Shown here: in pieces, positions 931-46,907 of the stretch
Layout: every line of letters starts with the position of its first letter
How positions within the stretch are numbered: position 1 is the stretch's first letter
From: Oscillospiraceae bacterium
GTDB taxonomy: Bacteria; Bacillota; Clostridia; Monoglobales; Monoglobaceae
Reading direction: 5' to 3'
DNA length: 47,813 bases
NCBI GenBank assembly: GCA_015068845.1
Contig: SVJR01000008.1
Coordinates: forward strand, 1-47,813
Notes under the pieces: generated by a model
Seen by the model: the letters and a program-made list of their open reading frames with translations, nothing else
Database searches by the model: none
Told to the model about the DNA's origin: nothing
Translations under genes and position numbers: made by a program

Positions 931-3234
931 TTACTTACCCGAATTCTCCAAATCTTTGTTACGGATTTCAACACGGCGAACCTTGCCGCTGATTGTTTTT
1001 GGAAGCTCGTCAACAAAATCAACTATTCTGGGGTATTTGTAAGGAGCGGTATGTGTCTTTACATATTCCTGAATTTCCTTTTTCAGTTCATCTGTACCAA
1101 CAGTTCCTTTTACGAGAACTATTGTTGCCTTTACTATCTGACCTCTAACCTCGTCGGGTACAGCGGTGATTGCACATTCAAGAACATAAGGAAGCTCCAT
1201 AATAACGCTCTCGATTTCAAACGGGCCTATGCGGTAGCCTGAAGACTTGATAACATCGTCAATTCTTCCCACATACCAAAGATAGCCGTCTTCGTCCATT
1301 GTTGCCTGGTCTCCGGTGTGGTAGTAGCCGTCGTGCCAAACATCCTTGGTCTTTTCGTCGTCAAGATAGTAGCCGATGAACAAACCGCAGGGGGTGGTAT
1401 CCTTTGTACGGACACAGATTTCACCGGTATCACCAATCTGGCATTCCTTGCCATCAGGGTCAAGCAGAACAACATCATAAAGCGGTGAAGGTCTGCCCAT
1501 TGAACCGATTTTAGGTGTGGAACCAACAAAGTTGGCGATTGAAAGGGTGGTTTCGGTCTGGCCAAAGCCCTCCATTATTTTAAGACCGGTTGCCTTAAAG
1601 AACTGGTTGTAAACCTCGGGGTTAAGCGCCTCGCCTGCTGTTGTTGCGTATTCAATGGAGGAAAGGTCGTACTTGGACAAATCTTCTTTAATGAAGAAAC
1701 GGTACATTGTGGGTGGTGCGCAGAATGTTGTGATATTGTACTTTTTAAAGAGAGGAAGTATATCGTCCGGATGGAAGCGGTCAAAGTCATAAGTGAACAC
1801 GCCTGCTTCGCACAACCACTGTCCGTAAAGCTTGCCCCAGAGCGCCTTGCCCCAGCCAGTGTCTGAAATTGTGAAGTGCAGACCGTCGGGGTTGACATTG
1901 TGCCAGAACTTTGCGGTGGGATAGTGCCCTAAAGCATATTTGTATGAATGTGTGGCAATTCTGGGATAGCCTGTTGTACCTGAAGTAAACAGCATAAGCA
2001 TCGGGTCGTCACCACAGGGCGAGTTTTCTTTGCGGTTAAAATGTGTGCTGAAACGCTCCATTTCCTCGTTGAAGTCATACCAGCCGTCCTTTTTGCCTCC
2101 AACCAGAATTTTGAGCATTCCGGGAAATTCTGCGGCTGCCTTTTCTGCCTCGGTTGAAACATCACCGTCAGCGGTGCAAACAATAGCCTTAACGCCTGCT
2201 GCCTTATATCTATATTCAAAGTCGTGCTCAACCAGCTGGTTGGTTGCAGGAATTGCGATTGCACCAATCTTGTGAAGTGCCAGCATACAGAACCAGAACT
2301 GATAGTGGCGCTTGAGAACCAGCATAACCGTATCACCGCGCTTGATGCCGAGTGACTCAAAGTAGTTTGCGGTTTTTGCAGAATATTTTTTCATATCACT
2401 GAAGGTAAAGGCACGCTCGGATTTATCGTTACTTACCCACATCATAGCTACTTTGTCGGGTGATTTCTTTGCAATCTTATCAACACAATCAAATGCAAAG
2501 TTGAACTTATCATCATTTTTAAAGGTGATTCCGTTAAACACACCTTTTTCGTCAAGAGTGGTTTCGATGAAGCCGTCTGCAACAGTTTTTGCAGCTACCT
2601 TTGCAGCTGTTGCGGCTTTTGCAGCAATGAACGGTGCTTCGGGATATTCCTCGCTGAAGTGTCCGTCCTGAGGGTTGAGAACAACTGCGTGGAATTCGCA
2701 GCCGCCTTCGCTTACAGCAATCATACCGTGAGGAATAATACTGTTATAGAAGATGGAGTCACCCTCGTGAAGAATATCAATGTGATTGCCTACCTGAACC
2801 TTAAGCGAGCCTTTGACGATTACATCAAATTCCTGACCGTTGTGCGAGTTAAGCTTGATAGGGGTATTCTGTTCCTCTTCAAGATAAGGGAACTTAACAA
2901 GGAACGGTTCAGCAAGCTTATCCTTGAATTTGGGGGCAAGGTTGTTGTAAACAACACCCTGCTTTTTTATAATTTTAAGACCCTCGCCTTTACGGGTAAT
3001 GGCAAAGGAGGTAAGAGTCGAACTTGTACCCTCCAAAATATCAACAACTTCAACATTGCAAGCCTTAGCACACTTGTAAATAAAGGTAAAGCTGAAGTCT
3101 GTTTCGCCTTCTTCAAGGATTTTATAATCCTCAACTGTCACACCGGTGAGCTTTGCAAGCTCTTCCTGGGTGTAGCCTTTTGCTTCGCGCAGGTCCTTGA
3201 TTCTTCCTGCAACTTCTTTCAAATTGTAATCCAT
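931..3234 (-). CDS. HTH-cupin-AMP-forming acyl-CoA synthetase fusion
   Basis: A 767-residue three-part protein. Residues ~1-65 form an XRE-type helix-turn-helix (RIKDLREAKGYTQEELAKLTG); ~85-170 a cupin barrel; ~215-765 an AMP-forming acyl-CoA synthetase that makes acyl-CoA and pyrophosphate/AMP from a carboxylate, ATP and CoA. Seen in the ligase: P-loop LFTSGTTGYPR near 415, YYHTGD, the hinge GRIDDVIKSSGYRIGPFEIE near 660, and the catalytic lysine in PKTISGKVRR near 748. I place the start at the internal ATG behind AGAAAGGAGC rather than the ATG 11 codons earlier, which has no ribosome site. A T-box reading ATC (Ile) precedes it, so I infer a branched-chain acid, perhaps 2-methylbutyrate, as substrate. 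The real substrate is unproven. The HTH might let it regulate genes or be only a structural relic. Confidence 0.88.
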   Translation of the reverse strand: MDYNLKEVAGRIKDLREAKGYTQEELAKLTGVTVEDYKILEEGETDFSFTFIYKCAKACNVEVVDILEGTSSTLTSFAITRKGEGLKIIKKQGVVYNNLAPKFKDKLAEPFLVKFPYLEEEQNTPIKLNSHNGQEFDVIVKGSLKVQVGNHIDILHEGDSIFYNSIIPHGMIAVSEGGCEFHAVVLNPQDGHFSEEYPEAPFIAAKAATAAKVAAKTVADGFIETTLDEKGVFNGITFKNDDKFNFAFDCVDKIAKKSPDKVAMMWVSNDKSERAFTFSDMKKYSAKTANYFESLGIKRGDTVMLVLKRHYQFWFCMLALHKIGAIAIPATNQLVEHDFEYRYKAAGVKAIVCTADGDVSTEAEKAAAEFPGMLKILVGGKKDGWYDFNEEMERFSTHFNRKENSPCGDDPMLMLFTSGTTGYPRIATHSYKYALGHYPTAKFWHNVNPDGLHFTISDTGWGKALWGKLYGQWLCEAGVFTYDFDRFHPDDILPLFKKYNITTFCAPPTMYRFFIKEDLSKYDLSSIEYATTAGEALNPEVYNQFFKATGLKIMEGFGQTETTLSIANFVGSTPKIGSMGRPSPLYDVVLLDPDGKECQIGDTGEICVRTKDTTPCGLFIGYYLDDEKTKDVWHDGYYHTGDQATMDEDGYLWYVGRIDDVIKSSGYRIGPFEIESVIMELPYVLECAITAVPDEVRGQIVKATIVLVKGTVGTDELKKEIQEYVKTHTAPYKYPRIVDFVDELPKTISGKVRRVEIRNKDLENSGK

Positions 3235-3281
3235 TTTTTTTGCTCCTTTCTTTTCCGCATATATCACGGGTTTGAATAAAA

Positions 3282-3535
3282 CAAAAAACCCGTCTCAGAT
3301 TTTGAGACGGGTTATACAACTCGCGGTACCACTCAAATTGCGGAAATACTTTCCGCCACTTTGCAGGCTCTATCAAGCCCTTGCTTTAACGCAGCATTAC
3401 GGAAGGAGTCTACTTGTAAAATACTTTCGGTCCTCCAACTCGGAAGTGATGGGTCATTGGAATGCTTCACCGATGGCTTGCAGCAACCGCCAACTCTCTG
3501 TAGGATTCACAGCCCGACCGTCTTCGTCATAGTTG
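3282..3535 (-). promoter_or_regulatory. T-box riboswitch, predicted isoleucine specifier (ATC)
   Basis: The leader carries the T-box sequence GAGTGGTACCGCGAG (3320-3334) and an AGAGAG box in stem I. A 12-bp terminator stem ACCCGTCTCAAA/TTTGAGACGGGT-type repeat with a T run lies at 3282-3313. The stem I base pairs AACT..GAAG with CTTC..AGTT. By alignment to the usual pattern (specifier, A, five stem bases, GAG), the specifier is ATC at 3448-3450. Uncharged tRNA-Ile would favour read-through into the acyl-CoA synthetase gene. The element is closely similar to the T-box at 36407. Confidence 0.9.
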
Positions 3536-3559
3536 TTTTGTGATATTCAAATTACTGGT

Positions 3560-7235: not shown

Positions 7236-7844
7236 ATGCCACAGATAAATAACGACAGTATGTTTAAGATTTCATACGGACTTTTTGTAATAACCGCAAA
7301 AGCGGAAAAGGACAACGGTTGTATTATCAATACAGTTCAGCAGGTAACTCAGGAACCGCTCAAAATCACGGTTGCGGTCAATAAGGATAACTACACCCAC
7401 GATATGATAAAGGAAAGTGGTATCTTCAATGTTTCGGTACTGACAGAATCAGTACCCTTTGATGTATTTGAACGCTTTGGCTTTGTCAGCGGAAGGGATA
7501 AAGATAAGTTCGAAGACTTTTCCGATGTTGCAAGAACAGAAAACGGACTTTTGTACTTAACAAAGTATTCAAATGCAGTGATTTCAGGAAAGGTGATTGC
7601 CGAGATAGATTGCGGAACACACACCATCTTTGTTGCTGATGTAGCGGAGGCGCTGAAGCTCTCTGATGAAAAAAGTGTTACCTATCAATATTATTTTGAT
7701 AACATCAAACCAAAGCCCGCTCAGAAGAAAAAGGGATATGTCTGCAAAATCTGCGGATATGTGTACGAAGGCGATGAACTCCCCGAAGACTTTATTTGTC
7801 CCTGGTGCAAGCATCCGGCATCTGACTTTGAACCGGCTGAATAA
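7236..7844 (+). CDS. Flavin reductase-rubredoxin fusion (high-molecular-weight rubredoxin type)
   Basis: 202 residues. Residues ~1-155 are a flavin reductase-type FMN domain (ISYGLFVITAK, NTVQQVTQEP, SVLTESVPFDVFERFGF). Residues ~163-200 are a rubredoxin with the two iron-binding knuckles CKICGYVY and CPWCKHPASDF. Proteins of this build (Hrb) carry electrons from NADH or ferredoxin to flavodiiron proteins that remove O2 or NO in anaerobes; that role is inferred here, as no flavodiiron gene is nearby. AGGGAGG precedes the ATG by eight bases and a TATAAT lies at 7204-7209. It stands alone, divergent from der. Confidence 0.88.
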   Translation: MPQINNDSMFKISYGLFVITAKAEKDNGCIINTVQQVTQEPLKITVAVNKDNYTHDMIKESGIFNVSVLTESVPFDVFERFGFVSGRDKDKFEDFSDVARTENGLLYLTKYSNAVISGKVIAEIDCGTHTIFVADVAEALKLSDEKSVTYQYYFDNIKPKPAQKKKGYVCKICGYVYEGDELPEDFICPWCKHPASDFEPAE

Positions 7845-7881
7845 TTAAATTTTTTAATAAAAATGTTTTTTAAAAACTTAC

Positions 7882-7910
7882 TTGACAAATAAATGTTAGT
7901 ATGTTAAACT
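7882..7910 (+). promoter_or_regulatory. Promoter for the Leu T-box/LeuA-like operon
   Basis: TTGACA (7882-7887) and TAAACT (7905-7910), 17 bases apart, with a TG one base before the -10 (extended -10). The T-box begins about 14 bases downstream. Confidence 0.75.
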
Positions 7911-7923
7911 ATTTCTTGTTATA

Positions 7924-8202
7924 AACGCAGTGATGCGGAATAGTATGCAGAATACTTTCGCCTATGAGAGAGATGCCGGGTGGTGTGAGGCATTGGGAGA
8001 GCTTTGCAGAACTCACCGCGGAGCGGCTGCCGTGAACTTTTGATTGTAAGGGCAGACGGGAACTCCCGTTACAGAGTTAAGATGTGTTTGCATCTAAGGG
8101 CATCCTGTATGGATGAAGAAGAGTGGTACCGCGGAAACATAAATTTTGAATTTAGCGTTTTCGTCTCTTTGAAGCAACAAGGAGACGGGAGCGTTTTTTT
8201 GT
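7924..8202 (+). promoter_or_regulatory. T-box riboswitch, predicted leucine specifier (CTC)
   Basis: The T-box sequence GAGTGGTACCGCGG lies at 8121-8134, the AG box GAGAGAG near 7965, and a fully paired 14-bp terminator stem AGCGTTTTCGTCTC/GAGACGGGAGCGTT followed by seven T at 8153-8200. The context GAACTCACCGCGGAG matches the common specifier-loop pattern, placing CTC (Leu) at 8012-8014; CCGC after it pairs with GCGG in the 5' strand. It fits the product below, which keeps a leucine-binding type domain. Confidence 0.93.
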
Positions 8203-8251
8203 TGGCTACGACAGTTTGATATAAAATGTAATTTGAAGGGAGTTTTCAAAA

Positions 8252-9640
8252 ATGAAAAAGATTAACATTTCAGACATTACTCTTAAAAAGCTTTCAGGGG
8301 AGCGGGAGGTTGCCCTTTTATTCCGTGAAAAAACAGCTGTTGCTGCCTGTGCGGACGCTCTGGGCGCAGATGCAGTTGAGCTTGCCCCGATAAAGAACTT
8401 GCGTGAAGATACTATTATATATAAAACAATTGCACAGAATGTTCAAAGTGCAGTACTCGCTATCCCTGTCGGTTTCAGCACTGAGGAGGTGCAGTCTGCC
8501 TGGGAATGCATTAAGGCTGCAAAAAAGCCTCGTCTCCAGATTGAACTTCCGGTATCTACCGTTCAGATGGAGTATACATATCATATAAAAGCGGATAAAA
8601 TGCTTGCGAAAATCGGCGAATTGATAAAGTTTGCAAAAGAGCTCTGCGACGATGTGGAATTTTCAGCACTCGACGCAACTCGTGCAGATGAGGATTTCCT
8701 CATTGCCGCTGTAAAAGAAGCAGAAGCAAACGGTGCCGGCACAATCACTGTTTGCGATGATGCAGGAGTATCACTGCCTGAGAATATTGCTGAACTGGTT
8801 GAGAAAGTGAAGGGCGCAGTTAGTATTCCCGTATGCGTTCAGATTTCAGACCGTATAAATATGGGCGTTGCTGCGGCTGTTGCGGCAGTATCAAAAGGTG
8901 CTGACGGACTCAAGTGTGCTATGGCGGGTAAAGATGTGCTTCTGACGGGTGAGATTTCAGATGCATTCAGCATTTGTTCTGCACAGATAGGTGCTGAAAT
9001 AAATCTTAACAGAACAAAAATTCATACAAGTATTGACGATATGCTTGCGAGCATTAATCACGATGCATACGAAACAGAAAGCTCTGTAAGCGAGAAAAAG
9101 AAGATTCTGCTCGACTCCGATGCAACATTGGCTCAGGTCGAACAAGCGGCAAGAATTTTGGGTTATGACCTTTCCGATTCAGATTGCGGTAATGTGTACA
9201 AAGCACTTCTTCAGGTTTGTGAAAAGAAGGATGCAGTAGGCGCAAAGGAGCTTGAAGCACTTATTGCAAGCTCTGCTATGCAGGCACCTTCAACATATCA
9301 TCTTGAAAGTTACACAATCAACAGCAGTAACCTTACCGGCTCTATGTCCCAGGTTACATTGAAGTGCAATGATGAGATTATTTCCGGTGTAAGCACCGGT
9401 GACGGTTCAATTGATTCTGCATTCCGTGCGATTGAACAATGTATAGGTTACCACTATGAGCTGGATGATTTCCAGGTTCAGGCAGTAACAGAAGGTAAAG
9501 AGGCATTAGGCTCTGCATTGGTAAGACTCCGCAACAACGGAAAGCTTTATTCCGGAAACGGTATCTCGACTGATATCGTTGCGGCGAGCATCAGAGCGTA
9601 TATCAATGCCCTGAACAAGATTATGTTTGAGGAGGAATAA
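8252..9640 (+). CDS. LeuA-like (2-isopropylmalate synthase family) protein lacking catalytic residues
   Basis: 462 residues. Residues ~1-275 resemble the DRE-TIM barrel and ~347-460 the LeuA C-terminal regulatory domain (TYHLESYTINSSNLTG to SGNGISTDIVAASIRAYI). The active site is gone: where LeuA has DTTLRDGEQ this protein has SDITLKKLSGERE, and where LeuA has the metal-binding HxHND it has VQISDRINMG. It should therefore not make 2-isopropylmalate. I infer a regulatory or scaffolding pseudoenzyme that may sense leucine. AAGGGAG precedes the ATG. It stands directly after a Leu T-box and ends one base before the next gene, whose ribosome site lies in its last codons (translational coupling). 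It could also have gained a new, unknown activity. Confidence 0.75.
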   Translation: MKKINISDITLKKLSGEREVALLFREKTAVAACADALGADAVELAPIKNLREDTIIYKTIAQNVQSAVLAIPVGFSTEEVQSAWECIKAAKKPRLQIELPVSTVQMEYTYHIKADKMLAKIGELIKFAKELCDDVEFSALDATRADEDFLIAAVKEAEANGAGTITVCDDAGVSLPENIAELVEKVKGAVSIPVCVQISDRINMGVAAAVAAVSKGADGLKCAMAGKDVLLTGEISDAFSICSAQIGAEINLNRTKIHTSIDDMLASINHDAYETESSVSEKKKILLDSDATLAQVEQAARILGYDLSDSDCGNVYKALLQVCEKKDAVGAKELEALIASSAMQAPSTYHLESYTINSSNLTGSMSQVTLKCNDEIISGVSTGDGSIDSAFRAIEQCIGYHYELDDFQVQAVTEGKEALGSALVRLRNNGKLYSGNGISTDIVAASIRAYINALNKIMFEEE

Positions 9641-9641
9641 G

Positions 9642-12101
9642 ATGAAAATTGTATTTTCAACTAAAAATGTAAATCGTGCATCCTTCCTTGATACCTGCCG
9701 GTATGCTTATGATTATGGGTTTGCAGGGTTTGAAATATATGATGCAATTAAAGAGCGCAGCCAGCATCACGACAGTATTCTGCGCCGTGACCGCATCGCT
9801 GACGCAAAGCGCAAGCTCATTAACCGAAATATATCAGTTTCTGCACTCCGGATACCTGAACCTGTAGAAAGCGATGAAGTGACTGCCGATATAATCTCAA
9901 AATATATAGATATGGCGGCAAATTCGGGCATTGAAAATATCATTGTTCGTGTTGAAGAAGAAACAGCATTTGATGCGCTGAACAAGAAGCTCTCGGATGC
10001 GATAAAGCGTGCCGAGAAAGCCGATGTGGGAATTTTGTTTGAAACAGTCGGCTACCTTTCTGACACCGAAAAGGTTGTAGACATAATAAACTTTTTCTCT
10101 TCTGCGGCAATCGGCGCATCGTGGAATGTACGGGGTACATATTTCGGTGCGGGCGAAACGGCGGAAACAACAATCAAAACCCTTGGCGCATATATAAAGT
10201 ATGTGCGACTGGGCGATATGAAAGACGGAAAGACCGTTTTAATCGGCGAGGGCGAATTGCCGGTTAAGGAATTACTCAACGCCCTCTCGTCGCTTAATTT
10301 CGACGGCTTTATCTGTGCGGCATGGAATGAGGAAATAAATGATGCAGATATTGTGCTGACACATTTTGCAAATTATATCTCAGCACTCCGCCGTGAGAAG
10401 AAGAGCTTCGAACACGCATACTACAACAGAGCAAAAACCGGCACCTTTGTTTGGAAAAAATATGATGTTATCGATGAAACCTTCTCAGGTGTTCTCGACA
10501 CAATGGTTGAAAAAAATCCCGATCAGTATGCATTTAAATATCCTACCCTTGATTATACAAGAACTTATGAACAGTTCCGCCGCGATGTTGATGAATGTGC
10601 AGCAGCTTTGATTTCTCTGGGGGTAAAAGCCGGTGACCATGTGGCTGTGTGGGCAACCAATGTCCCCGAATGGTTTATTGCTTTCTGGGCAACAACAAAA
10701 ATCGGTGCGGTACTGGTTACAGTGAATACGGCATATAAGATTCACGAAATTGAATATTTGCTGAAGCAGTCGGATACCCATACCCTTGTGATGATTGAAT
10801 ATTGCAAGGATATTAATTACAAAGAAATTATTCAGGAGCTTTGTCCCGAGCTTGAAAGCCTCGCACCTGGCCAGCCTTTATATTCGAAAAATCTGCCATT
10901 TTTACGCAATGTCGTAACAGTTGGATTTTCAATGCAGGGCTGCCTTACATGGGAGCAGATGCTTTCCCGTTCCTCGCTTATCCCCCGTGAAGAAGTACGC
11001 AGACGCGCATCTCTCGTTAAACCCGACGATGTATGTAATATGCAGTACACATCGGGAACAACCGGATTCCCTAAGGGCGTTATGCTCACCCATCGTAACA
11101 TAGTTAACAACGGTAAAACAATCGGTGACAGAATGGATTTGTCAACAGCCGACCGTATGATGATTCAGGTGCCTATGTTCCATTGCTTCGGTATGGTACT
11201 TTCAATGACATCGATGATGACCCACGGCGGAACCCTTTGTCCAATCCCGTATTTCTCACCTAAATCATCGCTTGCTTGCGTTAATGACGAGCATATAACC
11301 TGCTTCAACGGCGTTCCGACAATGTTTATTGCAATGTTCAACCATCCGGATTTTGCAAAGACAGATTTCTCGTATATGCGAACAGGTATTATGGCGGGTG
11401 CCAACTGCCCTGCAGATTTGATGCGCCGTGCCGCAGACGAAATGAATATGCGTGAAATTATATCCGTATATGGTCAGACCGAGGCTTCTCCCGGCTGCAC
11501 AATGGGTGAGGTTAACGAGGATATAGACCACCGTGTTGAAACAGTAGGCAGTCCGTTCCCCGGCGTTGAATGTAAGGTTATTGACCCCGAAACCGGCGAG
11601 GAACTCCCCGACGGCGAAAGCGGCGAATTTGTTGCTCGCGGCTTCAATATTATGAAGGGCTATTACAAAATGCCTGAAGCAACTGCACAAGCGATAGACG
11701 CTGACGGCTGGCTTCATTCAGGAGATATATGCTGTCGTACACCTGACGGCTATTACAAGGTAACGGGCCGTCTTAAGGATATGATTATCCGCGGCGGCGA
11801 AAATCTCTACCCCCGTGAAATTGAGGAGTTCTACCTGACCAATCCCAAAGTGCGTGATGTTCAGGTGGTTGGTGTTCCTGATGAAAAATACGGCGAAGAA
11901 TGTTGCGCCTGGATTATTCTGCATAAGGGCGAAACAGCTGACGAAAACGAAATGCGTGAATTCGGCAATGCGTATATTGCACGGCATAAGGTTCCCAGAT
12001 ACTTTATATTTGTCAATGAATTCCCGATGAATGCCGCAGGTAAAATTTTAAAATACAAAATGCGCGATGAATCCGTGGAAATTCTTGGACTGAAAAAATA
12101 A
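9642..12101 (+). CDS. TIM-barrel-acyl-CoA ligase fusion protein
   Basis: 819 residues. Residues ~1-255 look like the sugar phosphate isomerase/endonuclease IV TIM barrel (FLDTCRYAYDYGFAGFEIYD, LFETVGYLS, GEGELPVKELL). Usual metal ligands appear partly lost, since RLGDMKD stands where a His is expected. Residues ~275-819 are an AMP-forming acyl-CoA ligase: P-loop YTSGTTGFPKGVMLTH near 468, YGQTEAS, hinge GRLKDMIIRGGENLYPREIE near 708, catalytic lysine in NAAGKILKYK near 800. The ATG used lies behind GAGGAGGA, five codons into the longest frame. Coupled to the LeuA-like gene under a Leu T-box, so I infer activation of isovalerate or another branched acid. A fatty acid substrate cannot be ruled out. 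Confidence 0.85.
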   Translation: MKIVFSTKNVNRASFLDTCRYAYDYGFAGFEIYDAIKERSQHHDSILRRDRIADAKRKLINRNISVSALRIPEPVESDEVTADIISKYIDMAANSGIENIIVRVEEETAFDALNKKLSDAIKRAEKADVGILFETVGYLSDTEKVVDIINFFSSAAIGASWNVRGTYFGAGETAETTIKTLGAYIKYVRLGDMKDGKTVLIGEGELPVKELLNALSSLNFDGFICAAWNEEINDADIVLTHFANYISALRREKKSFEHAYYNRAKTGTFVWKKYDVIDETFSGVLDTMVEKNPDQYAFKYPTLDYTRTYEQFRRDVDECAAALISLGVKAGDHVAVWATNVPEWFIAFWATTKIGAVLVTVNTAYKIHEIEYLLKQSDTHTLVMIEYCKDINYKEIIQELCPELESLAPGQPLYSKNLPFLRNVVTVGFSMQGCLTWEQMLSRSSLIPREEVRRRASLVKPDDVCNMQYTSGTTGFPKGVMLTHRNIVNNGKTIGDRMDLSTADRMMIQVPMFHCFGMVLSMTSMMTHGGTLCPIPYFSPKSSLACVNDEHITCFNGVPTMFIAMFNHPDFAKTDFSYMRTGIMAGANCPADLMRRAADEMNMREIISVYGQTEASPGCTMGEVNEDIDHRVETVGSPFPGVECKVIDPETGEELPDGESGEFVARGFNIMKGYYKMPEATAQAIDADGWLHSGDICCRTPDGYYKVTGRLKDMIIRGGENLYPREIEEFYLTNPKVRDVQVVGVPDEKYGEECCAWIILHKGETADENEMREFGNAYIARHKVPRYFIFVNEFPMNAAGKILKYKMRDESVEILGLKK

Positions 12102-36406: not shown

Positions 36407-36676
36407 AGCTATGACGAAGAAGGTACGGAGCGTGCGGCTTCACAGAGAATCGGTGGGTGGTGCAAACCGATAGCGGTAGTTTCAATGTACCCCTCACTTC
36501 CGAGCTGAAGGTCAGAAAGCCAAAGCCTTGGTCAGTAGATACCTTCCGTAATTGCTGCGTTAACTGCAAAGGTCTTGATAGAGTCCGGCGAGTGGCGGAG
36601 GTTTTCCGCAATTTGAGTGGTACCGCGAGTGTTTTCACCCGTCTCAAAGCTTTTCTTTGAGACGGGTATTTTATTA
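36407..36676 (+). promoter_or_regulatory. T-box riboswitch, predicted leucine specifier (CTC)
   Basis: T-box sequence GAGTGGTACCGCGAG (36615-36629), AGAGAA box near 36445, and terminator ACCCGTCTCAAAG/TTTGAGACGGGT (36637-36667) with a T-rich tail. The stem I base pairs AGCT..GAAG (36407-36419) with CTTC..AGCT (36497-36505), which puts the specifier CTC at 36493-36495. It is nearly the same element as the one at 3282-3535; within the specifier pattern CCC-NTC-ACTTCCGAG they differ by one base (C here, A there), changing Leu to Ile. Confidence 0.92.
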
Positions 36677-36713
36677 TAAAAGTCCAATTTTTTACTTAAA
36701 CGGAGAATTATTG

Positions 36714-37382
36714 ATGAAATACAGCTACAAACGAATAACCTTACTGGCAGGCCATTATGGCAGCGGTAAAACAAATATTGCCGTAAATATGGCATTTGAC
36801 TTAAAAAAACAGTATAACAGCGTTACGATTGCCGACCTTGACATAGTAAATCCGTATTTTAGAACAAAAGACAGCCAGACCGAGCTTGAGGCAGAGGGAA
36901 TAAAACTGATTTGTTCGGAATATGCAAATACCAATGTCGATATACCTGCCCTTCCGCAGGATATGTATTCGGTAATTGACGACCAAAGCCGGTATGCGGT
37001 TATTGATATAGGCGGTGATGACCGCGGGGCCTATGCGTTGGGCAGATACTCCGATGGAATTTTAAAGGAAGATAACTATGATATGCTGTTTGTTATCAAC
37101 TGCTATCGACCTCTTACCCGTGACGCTATGACAACTCTTGAGGTTATGCACGAGATTGAAATGGCGGGGAAAATCAAATTTACCGGTATTGTAAATAACT
37201 CAAACCTTGGTGAAGAAACAACAGCAGACGATGTGCTGAGTTCTCTTGATTACGCATCAAAGGTTTCAAAGGAGACGGGTCTGCCAATCAAGGCGACCTG
37301 TGTGAAACAGGAACTTATTGATGAACTGTCGGAGAAAATTCCGGATTTGTTTGCTTTAAAGTTACAAAAAAAGATTATTTAA
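36714..37382 (+). CDS. P-loop ATPase (ParA/MinD/CobQ type) in the oxidoreductase operon
   Basis: 222 residues. Walker A LLAGHYGSGKTNIAVNMAFD near the N-terminus, an IADLDIVNPYFR switch-like Asp segment, DIGGDDRGAYALGRY, and VINCYRPLTRDAM. The fold is that of SIMIBI-class NTPases. The ATG follows CGGAGA and lies 38 bases past the T-box terminator; a longer frame from 36657 would start inside the terminator. As first gene before the ferredoxin and 2-oxoacid oxidoreductase genes, it may be a metallocluster maturation or assembly ATPase; that is inference. Confidence 0.8.
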   Translation: MKYSYKRITLLAGHYGSGKTNIAVNMAFDLKKQYNSVTIADLDIVNPYFRTKDSQTELEAEGIKLICSEYANTNVDIPALPQDMYSVIDDQSRYAVIDIGGDDRGAYALGRYSDGILKEDNYDMLFVINCYRPLTRDAMTTLEVMHEIEMAGKIKFTGIVNNSNLGEETTADDVLSSLDYASKVSKETGLPIKATCVKQELIDELSEKIPDLFALKLQKKII

Positions 37383-37400
37383 TGTGAAGGAGAGATAAAT

Positions 37401-37607
37401 ATGGCAAAGCTTACATTTAAAACAGATAGCTGTAAGGGCTGCGGACTTTGTGTGGACGCGTGCCCGAAGCAGGTTCTGGAGCTGGCAAAAGACAAAATAA
37501 ACAAAAAGGGACATCATCCCGTAGAGGCAGTAAACCCTGATGCTTGTATCGGCTGTGCATTCTGCGCAACAATGTGTCCTGATTGCATTATCACGGTAGA
37601 AAGGTAG
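37401..37607 (+). CDS. 2-oxoacid:ferredoxin oxidoreductase, delta (4Fe-4S ferredoxin) subunit
   Basis: A 68-residue double [4Fe-4S] ferredoxin with two cluster motifs, CKGCGLCVDACP and CIGCAFCATMCPDC. It carries electrons between the TPP site of the beta subunit and external ferredoxin. AGGAGAG precedes the ATG. It lies nine bases before the alpha-subunit gene, in the KorDABC/VorDABC order. Confidence 0.94.
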   Translation: MAKLTFKTDSCKGCGLCVDACPKQVLELAKDKINKKGHHPVEAVNPDACIGCAFCATMCPDCIITVER

Positions 37608-37616
37608 GGAAAAATA

Positions 37617-38681
37617 ATGTCAGATAAAGTTTTAATGAAAGGCAACGAAGCTATTGCTGAAGCTGCCATAATTGCAGGATGCCGTCATTATTTCGGTTAT
37701 CCTATCACCCCACAGACAGAAATTGCGGCATATATGGCAAAAAGAATGCCCAAAATCGGCGGAACATTTCTTCAGGCAGAAAGTGAAATCGCTGCAATAA
37801 ATATGGTGTACGGCGTTGCATCAACAGGTAAAAGGGTAATGACCTCATCGTCAAGCCCCGGTATCTCACTTAAGGGCGAAGGTCTTTCGTACCTTGCCGG
37901 TGCCGACCTCCCGTCACTTGTAATCAATGTTCAGCGTGGCGGCCCCGGTCTCGGTGGTATCCAGCCCTCACAGTCAGACTACTTCCAGGCAACCAAGGGC
38001 GCAGCTCACGGCGACTTCAGAATGATAGTTCTTGCTCCCAGCTCCGTTCAGGAAATGGCTGATATGACAGTTAAGGGCTTTGAACTTGCTGATAAGTACA
38101 GAATGACAGCAATGGTTCTGGCTGATGGTACAATGGGTCAGATGATGGAGCCTGTTTCTCTTGATTATGAGATTGGTGCGACCGTTGAAAAGCCCTGGGC
38201 AACAACCGGTACAAAGATGGAAAGACCCCACAATATCGTGAACTCTCTGTTCCTCGAGCCCGATGCGCTTGAAAAGTCAAACTTTGCTCGCTACGAAAGA
38301 TATAAAGAAATCGAAGAAAACGAATGTATGTACGAAGAGTATATGATGGACGATGCAGAAATTTGCGTTACAGCATTCGGTATTGCTGCCCGCGTTTCAA
38401 AGAACGCAATCAATGCGGCACGCGAAATGGGTATCAAGGTAGGCCTTATCCGTCCTATCACACTCTGGCCGTTCCCCGCAGCTCCTTATAAGAAGGCGGC
38501 AGACAAGGTTAAGGAAATTATTTCTGTTGAACTTTCAATGGGCCAGATGATTGAGGATGTACGCCTTGCATCTGAATGTAAAGTTCCCGTTACACTCTGT
38601 AACCGTGTGGGCGGTATGATTCCCTCACCCGAACAGGTGCTTGACGCAATAAAGAAAGCAGCAAACGGAGGTGCAAAATAA
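37617..38681 (+). CDS. vorB: 2-oxoacid:ferredoxin oxidoreductase, alpha subunit (VorB/KorA type)
   Basis: 354-residue alpha subunit, covering the pyrimidine-binding and transketolase-C-like domains. Seen: YFGYPITPQTEIAAYMAKRM, QAESEIAAINMVYGVASTGK, TSSSSPGISLKGEGLSYLAG, and RGGPGLGGIQPSQSDYFQ. The family acts on branched 2-oxoacids or 2-oxoglutarate, and can run toward oxidation or reductive carboxylation. Sequence alone does not separate VOR from KOR; the Leu T-box and the aminotransferase downstream favour branched-chain substrates. It overlaps the next gene by one base. Confidence 0.88.
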   Translation: MSDKVLMKGNEAIAEAAIIAGCRHYFGYPITPQTEIAAYMAKRMPKIGGTFLQAESEIAAINMVYGVASTGKRVMTSSSSPGISLKGEGLSYLAGADLPSLVINVQRGGPGLGGIQPSQSDYFQATKGAAHGDFRMIVLAPSSVQEMADMTVKGFELADKYRMTAMVLADGTMGQMMEPVSLDYEIGATVEKPWATTGTKMERPHNIVNSLFLEPDALEKSNFARYERYKEIEENECMYEEYMMDDAEICVTAFGIAARVSKNAINAAREMGIKVGLIRPITLWPFPAAPYKKAADKVKEIISVELSMGQMIEDVRLASECKVPVTLCNRVGGMIPSPEQVLDAIKKAANGGAK

Positions 38682-39436
38682 TGGTAGTTTTTGAAAAACC
38701 AAAGGCTCTGGCAGATGTCCAGATGCACTACTGCCCCGGCTGTACCCACGGTATTGTTCACCGTCTGGTAGCTGAGGTTATAGATGAGCTTGGAATCGAA
38801 GGCAAGACAATAGGTGTTGCACCTGTTGGCTGTTCGGTTATGGCGTACAATTACTTTAACTGTGATATGATTGAAGCAGCACACGGTCGTGCTCCGGCTG
38901 TTGCAACAGGTGTTAAGCGTTCAGACCCAGAGAACCACATTGTTTTCACATACCAGGGCGATGGCGACCTTGCATCAATTGGTATGGCAGAAACTGTTCA
39001 TAGTGCTGCAAGAAACGAAAATATCACCGTTATCTTTATCAATAACGCAATTTACGGTATGACAGGCGGTCAGATGGCACCTACATCACTTCCCGGTCAG
39101 GTAACACAGACTTCACCTTACGGTAGAGATACAGATGCCTGCGGTTTCCCGATAAGAGTATGCGAAATGCTCTCAACCCTTGATGGCCCCGAATACCTCG
39201 AAAGAGTTACCGTAAACAATGTAAAGAATGTCAAGAATGCTAAAAAGGCAATCAAAAAGGCATTCCAGAACCAGATTGACGGCAAGGGCTTCTCTCTTGT
39301 TGAGGTCGTTTCAAGCTGTCCCACAAACTGGGGTATGACACCTCAGGATGCTCTCAAATGGATTGATGAAAAGATGCTGCCCTATTACCCGCTTGGCGTA
39401 TACAAGGACCGCAGCGCAGAAAAGGAGGCAGAATAA
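38681..39436 (+). CDS. 2-oxoacid:ferredoxin oxidoreductase, beta (TPP-binding) subunit
   Basis: 251 residues. The CPGCTHGIVHRLVAEVIDEL start, VAPVGCSVMAYNYFNCD, and the TPP-Mg motif GDGDLASIGMAETVHSAARN with NNAIYGMTGGQMAPTS are visible. It binds thiamine pyrophosphate, cleaves or forms the 2-oxoacid C-C bond and hands electrons to the ferredoxin subunit. Coupled on both sides: TAATG with the alpha gene and with the gamma gene. Its need for TPP ties it to the thiamine salvage operon in this window. Confidence 0.93.
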   Translation: MVVFEKPKALADVQMHYCPGCTHGIVHRLVAEVIDELGIEGKTIGVAPVGCSVMAYNYFNCDMIEAAHGRAPAVATGVKRSDPENHIVFTYQGDGDLASIGMAETVHSAARNENITVIFINNAIYGMTGGQMAPTSLPGQVTQTSPYGRDTDACGFPIRVCEMLSTLDGPEYLERVTVNNVKNVKNAKKAIKKAFQNQIDGKGFSLVEVVSSCPTNWGMTPQDALKWIDEKMLPYYPLGVYKDRSAEKEAE

Positions 39437-39969
39437 TGAGTACAACACAGATGCTTATTGCAGGCTTTGGTGGTCAGGGAATTCTGTTCGCAGGTAAATT
39501 CCTTGCATACAAAGGCCTTGTTGAAGAAAAAGAAGTAAGCTGGCTTCCCTCATACGGTCCCGAAATGCGTGGCGGTACTGCAAGCTGCAGCGTTATCATC
39601 AGTGATGAGCCTGTAGGTTCGCCTATCGTATCAACTCCTGATGTGCTGGTTGCTATGAATCTTCCCTCGCTTGATAAATATGAAGCAACAGTTGCTCCCG
39701 GCGGCAAGATTTTTGTAGATTCAACCCTGATTGAAAGAAAGGTAAACCGCACAGATGTTGAGGTTTACTATATCCCTGCAACAAGGCTTGCGTCCGACAA
39801 CAATATGCCCACACTTGCAAATATGATTATTGCCGGTAAGCTTTTGAGCGTTACAAACGGATTTTCAGACGAAGGCATAAACGCCGCACTCAAAAAGGTA
39901 ATTTCTGCAAAGCGTGCAGATATGCTTGAGACAAACCTCAAGGCAATGCAGATTGGTGCAGAAAACTAA
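39436..39969 (+). CDS. 2-oxoacid:ferredoxin oxidoreductase, gamma subunit
   Basis: 177-residue gamma domain. Seen: [60 protein letters not shown]. It completes the A/B/C/D set with the three genes upstream. Coupled to the beta gene by a one-base overlap. Confidence 0.93.
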
Positions 39970-39990
39970 TTTTCAAAGGAGACAGTTAAA

Positions 39991-41055
39991 ATGGAGATAA
40001 AAATTACAAAAACAACAGCTCCCAAGGAACATCCTGAAAGCTCAACTCTGGGCTTCGGTCAGTTCTTTACCGACCATATGTTCGTAATGGACTATTCAAG
40101 AGAAAAGGGATGGTATGATGCAAGAATTATTCCCTTTGGTAAGTTTGAAATCCATCCTGCATCAACAGTTCTTCATTACGGCTCAGAAATTTTTGAAGGA
40201 CTCAAGGCATACCGCCGTGAGGATGGAAAGGTTCAGATGTTCAGACCCATCGAAAACATCCGCAGAATGAACCGCTCTGCTGAAAGACTTTGCTTGCCCC
40301 AGATTGACGAGGCAATGGCTATGGAAATTCTCGAAACCTTTGTTGCGTTCGAGCAGGACTGGACACCTTCAGCTCCCGGAACTTCACTCTACCTCAGACC
40401 CTTTATGTTCGGTAACGACGAAACTCTGGGCGTTCACGCAGTTCATAATGCAACATTTATGATTATTGCATCACCGGTAGGTAGCTACTACAAAGAGGGA
40501 ATCAACCCGGTTAAGATTATGATTGAAGCAGAGGATGTCCGTGCAGTACGCGGCGGTACAGGCTATGCAAAGTGCGGCGGTAACTACGCGGCAAGTAACC
40601 GTGCCGGCGAAAGAGCAGAACAAAGCGGCTATTCACAGGTTCTCTGGCTCGACGGCGTTGAAAGAAAGTATATCGAAGAAGTTGGCGCAATGAATGTTAT
40701 GTTCAAGATTAACGGTGAAATCATTACCCCTGCGCTGACCGGTTCAATTCTTCCCGGTATTACCCGTATGTCATGTATTGAGGTTCTCAAAAAGGAAGGT
40801 TATAAGGTATCAGAACGCCTTCTCAGCATTGACGAGCTTGCAAAGGCTATGGCTGACGGTACTTTGGAAGAGGCTTGGGGTTGCGGCACAGCGGCAGTTG
40901 TATCACCTATCGGCGAGCTTCGCTACAAGGACGAAGTATTTACCGTTAACAATGGCGAAATCGGTGAAGTAACCCAGCATCTTTACGATACGCTTACAGG
41001 AATTCAGTGGGGCAAGCTTGAAGACAGCTTTGGTTGGACTCATCCCATAAAATAA
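39991..41055 (+). CDS. ilvE: Branched-chain amino acid aminotransferase
   Basis: PLP enzyme of fold type IV that swaps the amino group between glutamate and the branched 2-oxoacids, giving Leu, Ile and Val. 354 residues, the length of the larger BCAT class. Seen: VLHYGSEIFEGLKAYR, RMNRSAERLCLPQ, the PLP-lysine segment GYAKCGGNYAASNR, VEEVGAMNVMF-like EEVGAMNVMFKINGE, and TPALTGSILPGITRMS. It follows the oxidoreductase by 21 bases with AAAGGAGA upstream, the next step for its 2-oxoacid product. Confidence 0.95.
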   Translation: MEIKITKTTAPKEHPESSTLGFGQFFTDHMFVMDYSREKGWYDARIIPFGKFEIHPASTVLHYGSEIFEGLKAYRREDGKVQMFRPIENIRRMNRSAERLCLPQIDEAMAMEILETFVAFEQDWTPSAPGTSLYLRPFMFGNDETLGVHAVHNATFMIIASPVGSYYKEGINPVKIMIEAEDVRAVRGGTGYAKCGGNYAASNRAGERAEQSGYSQVLWLDGVERKYIEEVGAMNVMFKINGEIITPALTGSILPGITRMSCIEVLKKEGYKVSERLLSIDELAKAMADGTLEEAWGCGTAAVVSPIGELRYKDEVFTVNNGEIGEVTQHLYDTLTGIQWGKLEDSFGWTHPIK

Positions 41056-41056
41056 A

Positions 41057-41860
41057 ATGGTAAACGGATATTATGTAATAGATGCACATTGCCACATCTA
41101 TCCCGAAAAAATAGCCGAAAAAGCAGTTGCGGCAACTGATAAGTTCTACGGAACAGTTGCCTACGGAAAAGGTACGGTCAGTCACCTTGTGACTTCTTAT
41201 AAGGAACTGGGGATTGACCACGCTCTTGTCCAGTCTGTTGCAACCACAGCCCATCAGGTAAAAAGCATAAACGAGTTCATCGCAAATGAGGTGAAGAATA
41301 GTTGTGGCTTTCTGACAGGTTTTGGAACCTTGCATCCCGACAGCAACGATATCCCCGGTGATATTGAGCATCTGATGGAAATGGGATTAAAGGGCGTAAA
41401 GCTTCACCCCGATATCCAAAAGTTTCAGGTAGATAAAGGCAATCTCCTCAAAATATACGAATACTGCGAAAAAAAGAATTTGCCAATCCTGATGCACACA
41501 GGTGACTACCGTTATGACTATTCCAATCCGAATCGTGTTCTGCCGGTGCTTAAGGCATATCCTAAGCTTACTGTGATAGGTGCACACTTTGGCGGCTGGT
41601 CAATATGGGAGGAAGCTTGCGAAAAGTATGCCGGACTTCCCAATTTCTATGTTGATTGCTCATCAAGCTTTAGCTTTGAAAATAGTGTAGACTATAAAAG
41701 GCTTATTTTCAGATACGGAACAGACAGAGTGCTGTTTGGAACGGATTACCCTATGTGGTCAGCTGAGGAGGAACTTAAAAACTTCTTTGCAATGAATCTG
41801 GGCGATGGTGCAAATCGGAAGATTTTAAGTGACAATATAAAAAAACTGTTGAAACTATAG
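41057..41860 (+). CDS. Amidohydrolase-2-like metal-dependent hydrolase
   Basis: 267-residue TIM-barrel hydrolase. Seen: DAHCHIYPEK (HxH metal site), GVKLHPDIQKF, LMHTGDYRYDY, VIGAHFGGWSIWEEA, and LFGTDYPMWSAEEEL with the catalytic Asp. The family includes decarboxylases and lactone or amide hydrolases. It begins one base after the ilvE stop, so it is translated from the same message. A role in branched-chain acid metabolism is likely by context, but the reaction is unknown. Confidence 0.8.
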   Translation: MVNGYYVIDAHCHIYPEKIAEKAVAATDKFYGTVAYGKGTVSHLVTSYKELGIDHALVQSVATTAHQVKSINEFIANEVKNSCGFLTGFGTLHPDSNDIPGDIEHLMEMGLKGVKLHPDIQKFQVDKGNLLKIYEYCEKKNLPILMHTGDYRYDYSNPNRVLPVLKAYPKLTVIGAHFGGWSIWEEACEKYAGLPNFYVDCSSSFSFENSVDYKRLIFRYGTDRVLFGTDYPMWSAEEELKNFFAMNLGDGANRKILSDNIKKLLKL

Positions 41861-41865
41861 TTTAT

Positions 41866-41904
41866 AAAACAGCTTTCTGCGGAAAGCTGTTTTATTTTTT
41901 TGTT
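41866..41904 (+). terminator. Terminator of the VOR-ilvE operon
   Basis: AAAACAGCTTTC-TGCG-GAAAGCTGTTTT followed by a T run, right after the amidohydrolase gene. Confidence 0.88.
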
Positions 41905-41937
41905 TCTGTCAATAATTGTACTGAGGTGATAAGCTTT

Positions 41938-42105
41938 ATGAAGATTACAAGGTATGTAAACGGCAAAAGAACAACAAAACCCTTTGATGACAGTACGGTT
42001 ATTGAAAAAGCGGAAATTTCAAGTGTAATAAGCAGAGTAAACCACAGACTGTCGGGCTTGCAAACAGAAACAAATTCAAATATCAGCGGAGCAGAAGATG
42101 AATAA
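41938..42105 (+). CDS. 55-residue protein coupled to the serine recombinase (possible recombination directionality factor)
   Basis: Too short for routine gene calling, but GAGGTGATAA precedes its ATG and it overlaps the recombinase start by eight bases. The peptide begins MKITRYVNGKRTTKPFDDST, is charged, ends acidic (SGAEDE) and has no membrane segment or zinc motif. I know no family. Small proteins beside serine integrases are often directionality factors that permit excision; this is inference from place and size only. Confidence 0.6.
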   Translation: MKITRYVNGKRTTKPFDDSTVIEKAEISSVISRVNHRLSGLQTETNSNISGAEDE

Positions 42106-43453
42106 GATTGCTGCAATCTATATCAGAGTTTCCACGGATGCGCAACGGGAAGAAGGATATTCAATTGATGCTCAAAAGGAAATGCTTACGGCATACTGCG
42201 TGTCAAAAGGCATAAAAAAATATGAGTATTATATTGATGGTGGATTCAGTGGCAGCAATATTGAACGCCCGGAGTTGAAACGCCTTATTGAAGATGTTAA
42301 AAAGGGCAAAATAGGTTGCGTTCTTGTGTATAAGCTTGATCGCCTTTCCAGAAGCCAAAAGGATACTTTATACCTCATAGAAGATGTATTTAATCCTCAT
42401 AATGTTGACTTTATCTCTCTTAACGAAAGTATGGATACATCAACCCCTCTTGGTCGACTGATGCTCGGAATTCTTTCAGCATTCGCGCAATTGGAGCGTG
42501 AAAATATCAAGGAACGAACCAGTATGGGTATGAAGGAGCGGGTCAAGGAAGGCTACTGGATGGGCGGCGGCAGAGTTCCGTTTGGCTATGATTATGACCA
42601 AAGCCGAGGCATTCTTGTCCCCAATCGTGATGCCGAAACTGTCAGGAGAATATACGAGCTGTACCTTGACGGCTATTCGCTTAATTCGATTGCCAGAATG
42701 CTCGGGCTAAGATACGAAAAGCTTGCCCGGCAAATACTGATGAGGAAAAGTAATGCCGGATACATTGTCTATAACGGCGAGGAATATAAGGGCAGACACG
42801 AGGCTATTGTCAGTCTTGAAACCTACGAAAAGGCAATGCAAAAAATGCAGGAGCGTTCGGGGAAATTCAAAGGCAGCACGCAAAACCTCCTGACGGGGCT
42901 TGTCAGATGCGGGATATGTGGCGCAAAAATGCGATACCAAAGGTGGGGAAAGCAGGGCTACCGGCTTGTGTGCTATTCAAAGGATAAAAGTAAGCCCCAT
43001 CTTGTGAAAGACCCGGACTGCACCAATGGCGGAATATGGGCGACCGAACTTGAAAATGTGGTTAAGGAAGACCTTTTCAGTATTGGAGTAAAGACACAAA
43101 ATAATAAAAAAGTTGACGAAAAGGATGTCCTTGAAATACTGAAAGAGAACGAGGCAAAGATTACGGAAAAACTCAAACGCCTTTACAATCTCTATGCCGA
43201 AGCGACAGACGATGCTTTGAAGGAAACGATTGCGGAAGCTAAAAAAAGCCTGAGCGAACTTCAAAGCCAGATAAGCCGCGAAGAAAAGCAAAAAATTCTT
43301 TCCCGAAACCGCCGTGAAATAAAAAAACAGCTTTCCACATTAAGAGAAAGCTGGGGATATATGACCGACAGAGAAAGGCGCAAAGTAGTGGAGAGCTGTG
43401 TTGAGGAAATTACCGTCGCAAATGAAGATGTTGAGATTTACTACAAATTCTGA
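42098..43453 (+). CDS. Large serine site-specific recombinase (SpoIVCA/phage integrase type)
   Basis: 451 residues. Resolvase domain ~1-150: IYIRVSTDAQ with catalytic Ser12, KLDRLSRSQKDTLYLI, ILSAFAQLERENIKERTSMG. Recombinase domain ~160-260 (GYDYDQSRGILVPNRDAETV). Zinc ribbon from ~270 (CGICGAKM with later Cys pair), then a coiled coil (~345-420) as in integrases that choose attachment-site pairs. Its stop codon is 18 bases from the point where the facing sigG sequence is broken. This is how skin recombinases such as SpoIVCA stand beside the sigK 5' half. No other phage genes are near. Confidence 0.94.
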   Translation: MNKIAAIYIRVSTDAQREEGYSIDAQKEMLTAYCVSKGIKKYEYYIDGGFSGSNIERPELKRLIEDVKKGKIGCVLVYKLDRLSRSQKDTLYLIEDVFNPHNVDFISLNESMDTSTPLGRLMLGILSAFAQLERENIKERTSMGMKERVKEGYWMGGGRVPFGYDYDQSRGILVPNRDAETVRRIYELYLDGYSLNSIARMLGLRYEKLARQILMRKSNAGYIVYNGEEYKGRHEAIVSLETYEKAMQKMQERSGKFKGSTQNLLTGLVRCGICGAKMRYQRWGKQGYRLVCYSKDKSKPHLVKDPDCTNGGIWATELENVVKEDLFSIGVKTQNNKKVDEKDVLEILKENEAKITEKLKRLYNLYAEATDDALKETIAEAKKSLSELQSQISREEKQKILSRNRREIKKQLSTLRESWGYMTDRERRKVVESCVEEITVANEDVEIYYKF

Positions 43454-43758
43454 TTTCCCATAAGGACATTTATTGGCACAGCGTAAGTAGAAAATTTAAC
43501 GCCGTGGGATGTGTCAAAGTTATCAAGTGCTTTGATGAGTCCGATGCACCCTACTTGAAATAAATCATCAATGTTCTCGTTTCGGTTCGAAAATCTCTGT
43601 AAAACGCTCAGAACAAGTCTGAGATTGCCGTATATAAACTCCTGTCTTGCAGAGGTGTCGCCCTTTTGGATTTTTTCAAAAAGCTCTCTTTTCTGTGCTT
43701 CGTTCAGAACGGGGAGCTTTGATGTATTTACTCCGCATATATCAACTTTGTTAATCAA
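43441..43758 (-). pseudogene. sigG: 5' part of sporulation sigma factor gene sigG, interrupted
   Basis: From a TTG start with AAGGGGG eight bases upstream, the frame reads INKVDICGVNTSKLPVL, then GNLRLVLSVLQRFSNR, DDLFQVGCIGLIKALDNFD and KFSTYAVP, a clear match to SigG, the late forespore sigma factor (~260 residues). After ~95 codons the match ends: SigG continues with MIIGEIRRYLRDNN, but this frame gives ten unrelated residues and stops. The product would have region 2.2 for core binding but no region 2.4, 3 or 4. The break coincides with the end of a serine recombinase gene. The 3' half is nowhere in the window. Confidence 0.85.
43465..43480. other. Putative attachment junction in sigG
   Basis: SigG-coding sequence is intact (minus strand) up to GTGCCAAT (43472-43479) and foreign immediately after. 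A shared core at or near GCCAAT is expected if a serine recombinase joined two sites here. The exact crossover dinucleotide cannot be fixed without the partner site. Confidence 0.55.
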
Positions 43759-43897
43759 CTTTTTGACCCCCTTTTTATTTTCCATAATATTATCTCACAA
43801 ACAGACTATGGATATACAGAAAAATAATTCCGTGTCTGAGAAATCATAAGTTAAACCTCGAGTGCATAAAGTAGTTTTAAAAAGGGGGAATTATCCG

Positions 43898-44137
43898 GTG
43901 AAATGCAGCTTAAACGAACTTAAAACAAAGGAAGTAATAAATGTTTCAGACGGAGCCAGATTGGGCTTTGTGTCGGACGCTTTGATAGACCTCGAAAGTG
44001 GCAGACTGACTGCTCTTGTTGTGCCTGGCGCATACAGACTGATGGGCTTTCTTGGTAAGGAGGAAGATATTGTGATAAGGTGGGAAAAAATTAAAAAAAT
44101 CGGTGATGATATTATAATTGTTGATGATGTGTCGTAG
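43898..44137 (+). CDS. YlmC/YmxH family sporulation protein (PRC-barrel)
   Basis: 79 residues from a GTG start with AAAAAGGGGG eight bases upstream; the longer open frame has no ribosome site. One PRC-barrel: LNELKTKEVINVSDGARLGF, DALIDLESGRLTALVVPG, and EDIVIRWEKIKKIGDDIIIV. YlmC/YmxH genes usually lie just downstream of sigG in spore formers; here the gene is divergent from the broken sigG piece, 139 bases away, which suggests rearrangement at this locus. Confidence 0.85.
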   Translation: MKCSLNELKTKEVINVSDGARLGFVSDALIDLESGRLTALVVPGAYRLMGFLGKEEDIVIRWEKIKKIGDDIIIVDDVS

Positions 44138-44173
44138 TTTTTACATATTTTCTACATTATTTAGCAAAAATAC

Positions 44174-44202
44174 TTGAAATATTTTTTTATGAATGTTATA
44201 CT
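44174..44202 (+). promoter_or_regulatory. Promoter of pncB
   Basis: TTGAAA (44174-44179) and TATACT (44197-44202), 17 bases apart, with an extended -10 TG. Confidence 0.75.
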
Positions 44203-44250
44203 AATTCTGTATTATTATGTCTAAAAACAAAAGAAAGGCTATGGTGATTT

Positions 44251-45681: not shown

Positions 45682-45759
45682 CTTCTGCTGTTTGTATATA
45701 ATTTAAAGTTTTATATAAATATATTTCATTGTAACAATATAAACCAAAGGAGAAAATAT

Positions 45760-46890: not shown

Positions 46891-46907
46891 GACCTACGAG
46901 GTACTAA

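Follow-up and report, generated by a model that had tools for sequence, protein, structure and literature searches.

What might a homologue of isopropylmalate synthase (LeuA) that lacks the catalytic signatures of the family be doing downstream of a leucine T-box leader and directly upstream of an acyl-CoA ligase gene? This question is raised by the 47,813-nucleotide contig from an Oscillospiraceae bacterium analysed here and referred to below as the window. The homologue is termed pLeuA, and the features discussed are collected in Table 1.

Loss of the LeuA active site

The pLeuA reading frame opens with an ATG at 8252, closes with a stop codon at 9638-9640, and encodes a protein of 462 amino acids that contains the two expected Pfam domains, HMGL-like (E-value 1.4e-27) and LeuA_dimer (E-value 2.2e-32). 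The match to the TIGR00973 equivalog, at 220.3 bits, lies below the cut-off of 598.7 and falls into two pieces without the middle, and all PRK00915 models score far under their cut-offs. The active site was probed by alignment to five canonical LeuA sequences from the same order and to E. coli LeuA. In these alignments KKLSG occupies the position of RDGEQ and QISDR that of HCHND, bearing out the claim of a preliminary description, also right in placing the gene at 8252-9640, that the RDGEQ and HxHND signatures are lost. Two losses go beyond those already described: only AG-KD remains of the NGxGERxGN motif, and the FAHxxGIHQ segment of subdomain II has gone with a deletion of approximately 33 residues. 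Among 80 relatives of pLeuA, none keeps the metal-binding Asp of RDG, either His of HxH, or the His of subdomain II, and the FAHxxGIHQ segment is deleted in all 80. The overall fold is retained in the AF2 model, in which the barrel superimposes on Listeria LeuA (3ewb) with a Z score of 33.6 and an rmsd of 1.9 over 258 residues. Matches to the whole chain are M. tuberculosis LeuA entries, including the leucine-bound structure 3FIG; their large rmsd reflects a different arrangement of the domains in the model. Judged from its sequence, pLeuA is almost certainly dead as an isopropylmalate synthase.

A scan of public genome contigs with pLeuA returned 62 loci, mostly from MAGs named Clostridia or Oscillospiraceae and from the ruminant gut. 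Full-length pLeuA is present in 45 of the 391 genomes of a class sample, at 35-85% identity and under 19 family labels. The family comprises two subtypes, type 1 (that of the window; 64-85% identity) and type 2 (about 40%), with identical losses in both. Phylogenetic analysis places all pLeuA sequences in one clade (support 100/100) beside Clostridial LeuA. A CimA origin, and with it an isoleucine-type sensor, was also considered and rejected, as the tree sets the pLeuA clade apart from CimA-like and yeast-type LeuA sequences. One 256-kb contig carries pLeuA and the ligase fusion twice, with equal scores and in opposite orientation (L049 and L050), reflecting either a recent duplication or an assembly artefact.

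Table 1. Positions of the features discussed, in window coordinates
Feature	Position	Strand	Basis
HTH + cupin + MbcS-like acyl-CoA ligase	931..3267	-	Pfam and NCBIfam
Second T-box, Ile specifier AUC, upstream of the HTH-cupin-ligase gene	3300..3539	-	RF00230, 99.7 bits
Leu T-box leader, specifier CUC (GAA-CUC-A-CC), upstream of pLeuA	7921..8171	+	Rfam RF00230
pLeuA, predicted catalytically dead LeuA homologue	8252..9640	+	Pfam domains, alignments, AF2 model (pLDDT 81)
DITLKKLSG (residues 8-16), replacing catalytic DTTLRDGEQ	8273..8299	+	Alignment to five Clostridial LeuA and E. coli LeuA
QISDR (residues 197-201), replacing metal-binding HxHND/HxHDD	8840..8854	+	Alignment
LeuA_dimer regulatory region of pLeuA	9242..9640	+	Pfam PF08502, AF2 secondary structure, residue mapping
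Shine-Dalgarno-like GAGGAGG of the ligase gene, within the last pLeuA codons	9629..9635	+	Read directly
Xylose-isomerase-like TIM-barrel domain of the partner	9642..10406	+	Pfam AP_endonuc_2; alignment of three groups
Acyl-CoA ligase domain of the partner, NMQYTSGTTGFPKG and NAAGKILKYK intact	10482..12101	+	Pfam AMP-binding (E-value 3.2e-96); conserved motifs
2-Oxoacid:ferredoxin oxidoreductase, subunit alpha (VorB)	37617..38681	+	NF005507, 542.7 bits (cut-off 399)
2-Oxoacid:ferredoxin oxidoreductase, subunit beta	38681..39436	+	TPP_enzyme_C
2-Oxoacid:ferredoxin oxidoreductase, subunit gamma	39436..39969	+	POR PF01558
Branched-chain amino acid aminotransferase (IlvE type II)	39991..41055	+	TIGR01123, 394.5 bits (cut-off 250)
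BCAT/amidohydrolase junction; cassette site in four congeners	41055..41057	+	Synteny with L112, L113, L114 and L117

The ligase fusion and the T-box leaders

The gene following pLeuA (9642-12101) encodes an AMP-binding acyl-CoA ligase with intact ligase motifs, preceded in the same chain by a xylose-isomerase-like TIM barrel. The GAGGAGG sequence lies 6 nt from the ATG of this gene at 9642, and the two genes appear to be translationally coupled. E460 and E461 count among the residues of pLeuA conserved specifically in its clade, but their conservation may be a product of this Shine-Dalgarno sequence instead. The fusion stands directly after pLeuA in all 45 class genomes that carry pLeuA. Similarly, at 76 loci the two genes share one strand and in most cases overlap or lie no more than 11 nt apart (extremes -122 and +147), with gap lengths that rest on a mechanical choice of start codon. 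An 843-aa form of the fusion is also found without pLeuA in many other genomes, suggesting that pLeuA is an add-on to an older fusion. Fusions of this kind at L168-L177, from many Clostridia genomes, have the presumed metal ligands of the barrel intact. Alignment of the fused barrels indicates that the presumed ligands E, D, H, and E are intact in type 2 and stand-alone fusions; at these positions the type 1 barrel of the window has E, N, R, and A, and it is consequently not classed as an isomerase. The AF2 model of the fusion has a pLDDT of 46, and no structural reading was taken from it.

The leader upstream of pLeuA scores 126.2 bits against RF00230 (gathering threshold 93), and its CUC specifier is given by the Rfam alignment. 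A T-box antiterminator precedes pLeuA in 61 of 65 type 1 loci. Of these 61 T-boxes, 51 have a CUC specifier by pattern, eight have CUC and one CUG by eye, and one was left without assignment, so that a leucine specifier precedes pLeuA in about 60 of 65 close relatives. As CUG likewise encodes leucine, it is the amino acid that is conserved and not the triplet. Where type 2 loci have a T-box (three cases), its specifier is also CUC. The leucine T-box noted just before the gene in the preliminary description is thus real, and the coupling to an acyl-CoA ligase fusion noted there is confirmed by Pfam, the intact motifs, and the pairing in the class genomes. Its broader view, that the gene encodes a ligase-coupled pseudoenzyme in which a regulatory domain of the leucine type is preserved, receives strong support from the alignments, the pairing, and the dN/dS values given below.

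T-boxes with other specifiers also occur in the window and at related loci. An AUC specifier precedes the HTH-cupin-ligase gene at 21 of 27 loci, and the product of this gene (931..3267 in the window) is probably the 2-methylbutyrate ligase of an isoleucine branch. At L115 and L171 two adjoining genes beside VOR encode the HTH-cupin part and the ligase separately. At L036 (4921-7046) a Phe (UUC) T-box is followed by phenylacetate-CoA-ligase-like and ACT-pair genes just upstream of pLeuA, a phenylalanine arrangement that follows the same logic as the leucine cassette. Phenylacetate-CoA-ligase-like and ACT genes adjoin pLeuA at L119 and L046 as well. Additionally, a T-box with an apparent Tyr (UAC) specifier lies upstream of a sodium-solute-symporter-like gene at L005 (13525-13777, minus strand).

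Candidate genes for leucine synthesis

The ligase, a VOR-type oxidoreductase, and a branched-chain aminotransferase are all present in the window, and together they suggest a route to leucine. First, isovalerate, the substrate predicted from the T-box and the operon, would be converted to isovaleryl-CoA by the fusion ligase. Next, the VOR-type oxidoreductase (37617-39969) would catalyze the reductive carboxylation of isovaleryl-CoA to 4-methyl-2-oxopentanoate. Finally, the aminotransferase (39991-41055) would convert 4-methyl-2-oxopentanoate to leucine. It is very likely that leucine is made from a branched-chain acid.

The distribution of the canonical pathway was assessed by three of its enzymes, IlvC, LeuA, and LeuC. 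Among 40 relatives, IlvC is found in none of the 15 genomes with pLeuA versus 16 of the 25 without it. In the class sample IlvC is present in 6 of 45 pLeuA genomes versus 201 of the 346 others (Fisher 6e-9, with relatedness ignored); pLeuA and IlvC are not strictly exclusive, as six pLeuA genomes hold both. In the genus of the window, whose own MAG is 79% complete, no LeuA was seen over the cut-off and no LeuC-sized protein was found, as the aconitase family members there are all aconitase-sized (640-690 aa). The presence of VOR and the aminotransferase, combined with the loss of IlvC, LeuA, and LeuC, provides a metabolic reason for a leucine sensor at this locus.

The gene order KORa-KORb-KORg-BCAT-pLeuA-ligase is found in four congeners (G002, G003, G004, and G007) and at L058, L180, and L184, and KORabg-BCAT-pLeuA-ligase operons also occur in other families. 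Window positions 36657-47720 are syntenic with L112 at 79-100% identity. In L112 a type 2 pLeuA-ligase cassette (7387-11316) sits exactly between the BCAT and amidohydrolase genes, where the window has no cassette; the window genome has instead, at 7921-12101, a cassette of type 1 under a Leu T-box of its own. We read this arrangement as one cassette having displaced the other in the same role, a replacement that may have run in either direction. Two further genes lie in this region. A large serine recombinase gene (42098-43453) occupies the corresponding syntenic position in three congeners (71-79% identity), as though it had been stably retained and had not moved recently. In the window, as in many relatives, the VOR operon is immediately preceded by a gene for a ParA/NUBPL-like P-loop ATPase (36657-37382).

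Role of pLeuA and comparison with known systems

Residue mapping identifies G420 of pLeuA (codon 9509-9511) as the equivalent of G462 in E. coli LeuA, where the substitution G462D yields a feedback-resistant, leucine-insensitive enzyme (PMC5595793). This glycine is kept in all 65 type 1 and in 12 of 13 type 2 relatives. Identified by similarity and with the feedback glycine present, the regulatory domain is probably of the leucine-sensing LeuA type. A sequence search of solved structures with this domain alone returned no match. The regulatory domain is also the most conserved part of pLeuA, with an entropy of 0.37 versus 0.87 for the barrel, and its constrained motifs are GDGP[IV]D, EG[KR][ED]A[LM]G, and STDI. 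The median dN/dS of pLeuA is 0.07 (16 pairs, median dS approximately 1), consistent with purifying selection, and amounts to 0.035 in the regulatory domain and 0.084 in the barrel.

We favor, as a probable reading and in line with the inhibitory leucine sensor suggested in the preliminary description, that pLeuA is a leucine-sensing regulatory partner of the adjoining ligase, with leucine binding and formation of the complex both predicted from sequence. When leucine is scarce, uncharged tRNA-Leu would open the T-box, and pLeuA and the ligase would be made. When leucine is plentiful, it would bind the regulatory domain of pLeuA and the ligase would be shut down. Leucine would therefore exert control at two levels, with the T-box governing expression and pLeuA governing activity.

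The low dN/dS of the barrel could also reflect a new enzyme, in which the barrel has exchanged LeuA chemistry for another reaction of the same pathway that draws on the conserved residues left in its pocket. Residues D141, R144, D169, S102, M106, and Y108 are conserved with canonical LeuA, and T166, C168, and K221 are clade-specific residues within the barrel. However, the metal-ligand positions show no conserved substitute across the pLeuA clade, and of the 23 residues conserved specifically in the clade, 18 fall within the linker and regulatory part, from residue 311 onward. The proposed route from isovalerate through isovaleryl-CoA and 2-oxoisocaproate to leucine is, furthermore, complete, with no step missing for such an enzyme to fill. 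This makes a new activity unlikely.

The obligate pairing and translational coupling with the ligase would equally suit a structural subunit or scaffold that contributes to ligase stability or to assembly with VOR and has no response to leucine. Since the 843-aa fusion exists without pLeuA, a stabilizing role could have passed to a partner. A mere scaffold would not need the regulatory domain with its feedback glycine, yet this is the most constrained part of the protein, and a purely structural role is accordingly judged improbable.

Leucine sensing could, in turn, have an outcome other than feedback inhibition of the ligase: pLeuA could activate, or its target could be VOR or the pseudo-isomerase barrel. 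Sequence gives no indication of the sign of the effect, and the type 1 fused barrel, having lost its metal ligands, may be a docking target. Nevertheless, through LeuA-type domains the end product normally inhibits the committed first step of its pathway, making inhibition of the ligase the natural guess, and the pLeuA gene is coupled to the ligase and not to VOR at loci where VOR sits elsewhere. Activation or a different target is thus considered quite improbable. Decay of a LeuA pseudogene carried along by the operon, to which the loss of the catalytic residues and of other leucine genes might have pointed, is refuted by the selection and distribution data, as the frame is open in more than 60 public loci and 45 class genomes, dN/dS is approximately 0.07, the family forms one old clade, and the T-box is maintained.

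The sensor reading, in which pLeuA controls the ligase, can be extended: the dead committed enzyme of the lost pathway would gate the first enzyme of the replacement pathway through its leucine-sensing domain, and in the lineage of the window the second dead barrel, carried by the ligase, may serve as its docking surface in a two-pseudoenzyme switch. This extension is plausible and is offered tentatively. The window and its relatives suggest an unusual evolutionary move, in which a pathway is lost but its first enzyme, though dead, is retained as the feedback sensor of the replacement pathway.

Similar to LeuA itself (TIGR00973; E. coli; M. tuberculosis 1SR9/3FIG), pLeuA has the same domain order, a TIM barrel, and a regulatory domain with the feedback glycine. 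In contrast to LeuA, it has neither the metal site nor RDG, the subdomain II segment is deleted, and production of isopropylmalate is not expected.

The pathway proposed for the window resembles chemistry described in rumen bacteria. The carboxylation of isovalerate to leucine is known from these organisms, as stated in the part of PMC7356843 that cites Allison 1962 and 1966, and the corresponding conversions of 2-methylbutyrate to isoleucine and of phenylacetate to phenylalanine are likewise mentioned there with references. All three have been known since the 1960s. Both pathways convert an acid through its acyl-CoA and a 2-oxoacid into an amino acid, and both involve ruminant-gut organisms; the rumen pathway was described as chemistry. 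The loci described here provide a candidate gene set, with matching Leu, Ile, and Phe T-boxes, for this old rumen carboxylation chemistry. Literature searches, with subscription papers outside their scope, found no paper on this gene set or on a LeuA-derived regulator, and nothing on a LeuA pseudoenzyme or on the combination of a T-box, phenylacetate-CoA ligase, and leucine.

The PaaK/ACT operons share with the pLeuA-ligase pair the placement of an acid-CoA ligase beside a protein of an amino-acid-binding type, in L036 under a Phe T-box. They differ in that the partner is an ACT pair and not a dead LeuA, and in that the ligase belongs to another subfamily.

The closest known parallel in logic is provided by HisZ, a catalytically dead histidyl-tRNA synthetase paralogue that regulates the short form of HisG, for which both the complex and the regulation are proven. 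HisZ has a different fold and derives from a different enzyme class, and for pLeuA the complex and the regulation are predicted. Like HisZ, pLeuA combines active-site loss in a conserved paralogue with linkage to its proposed target enzyme, and in both cases the dead paralogue of an amino-acid-handling enzyme would act as the regulatory subunit of the first enzyme of synthesis.
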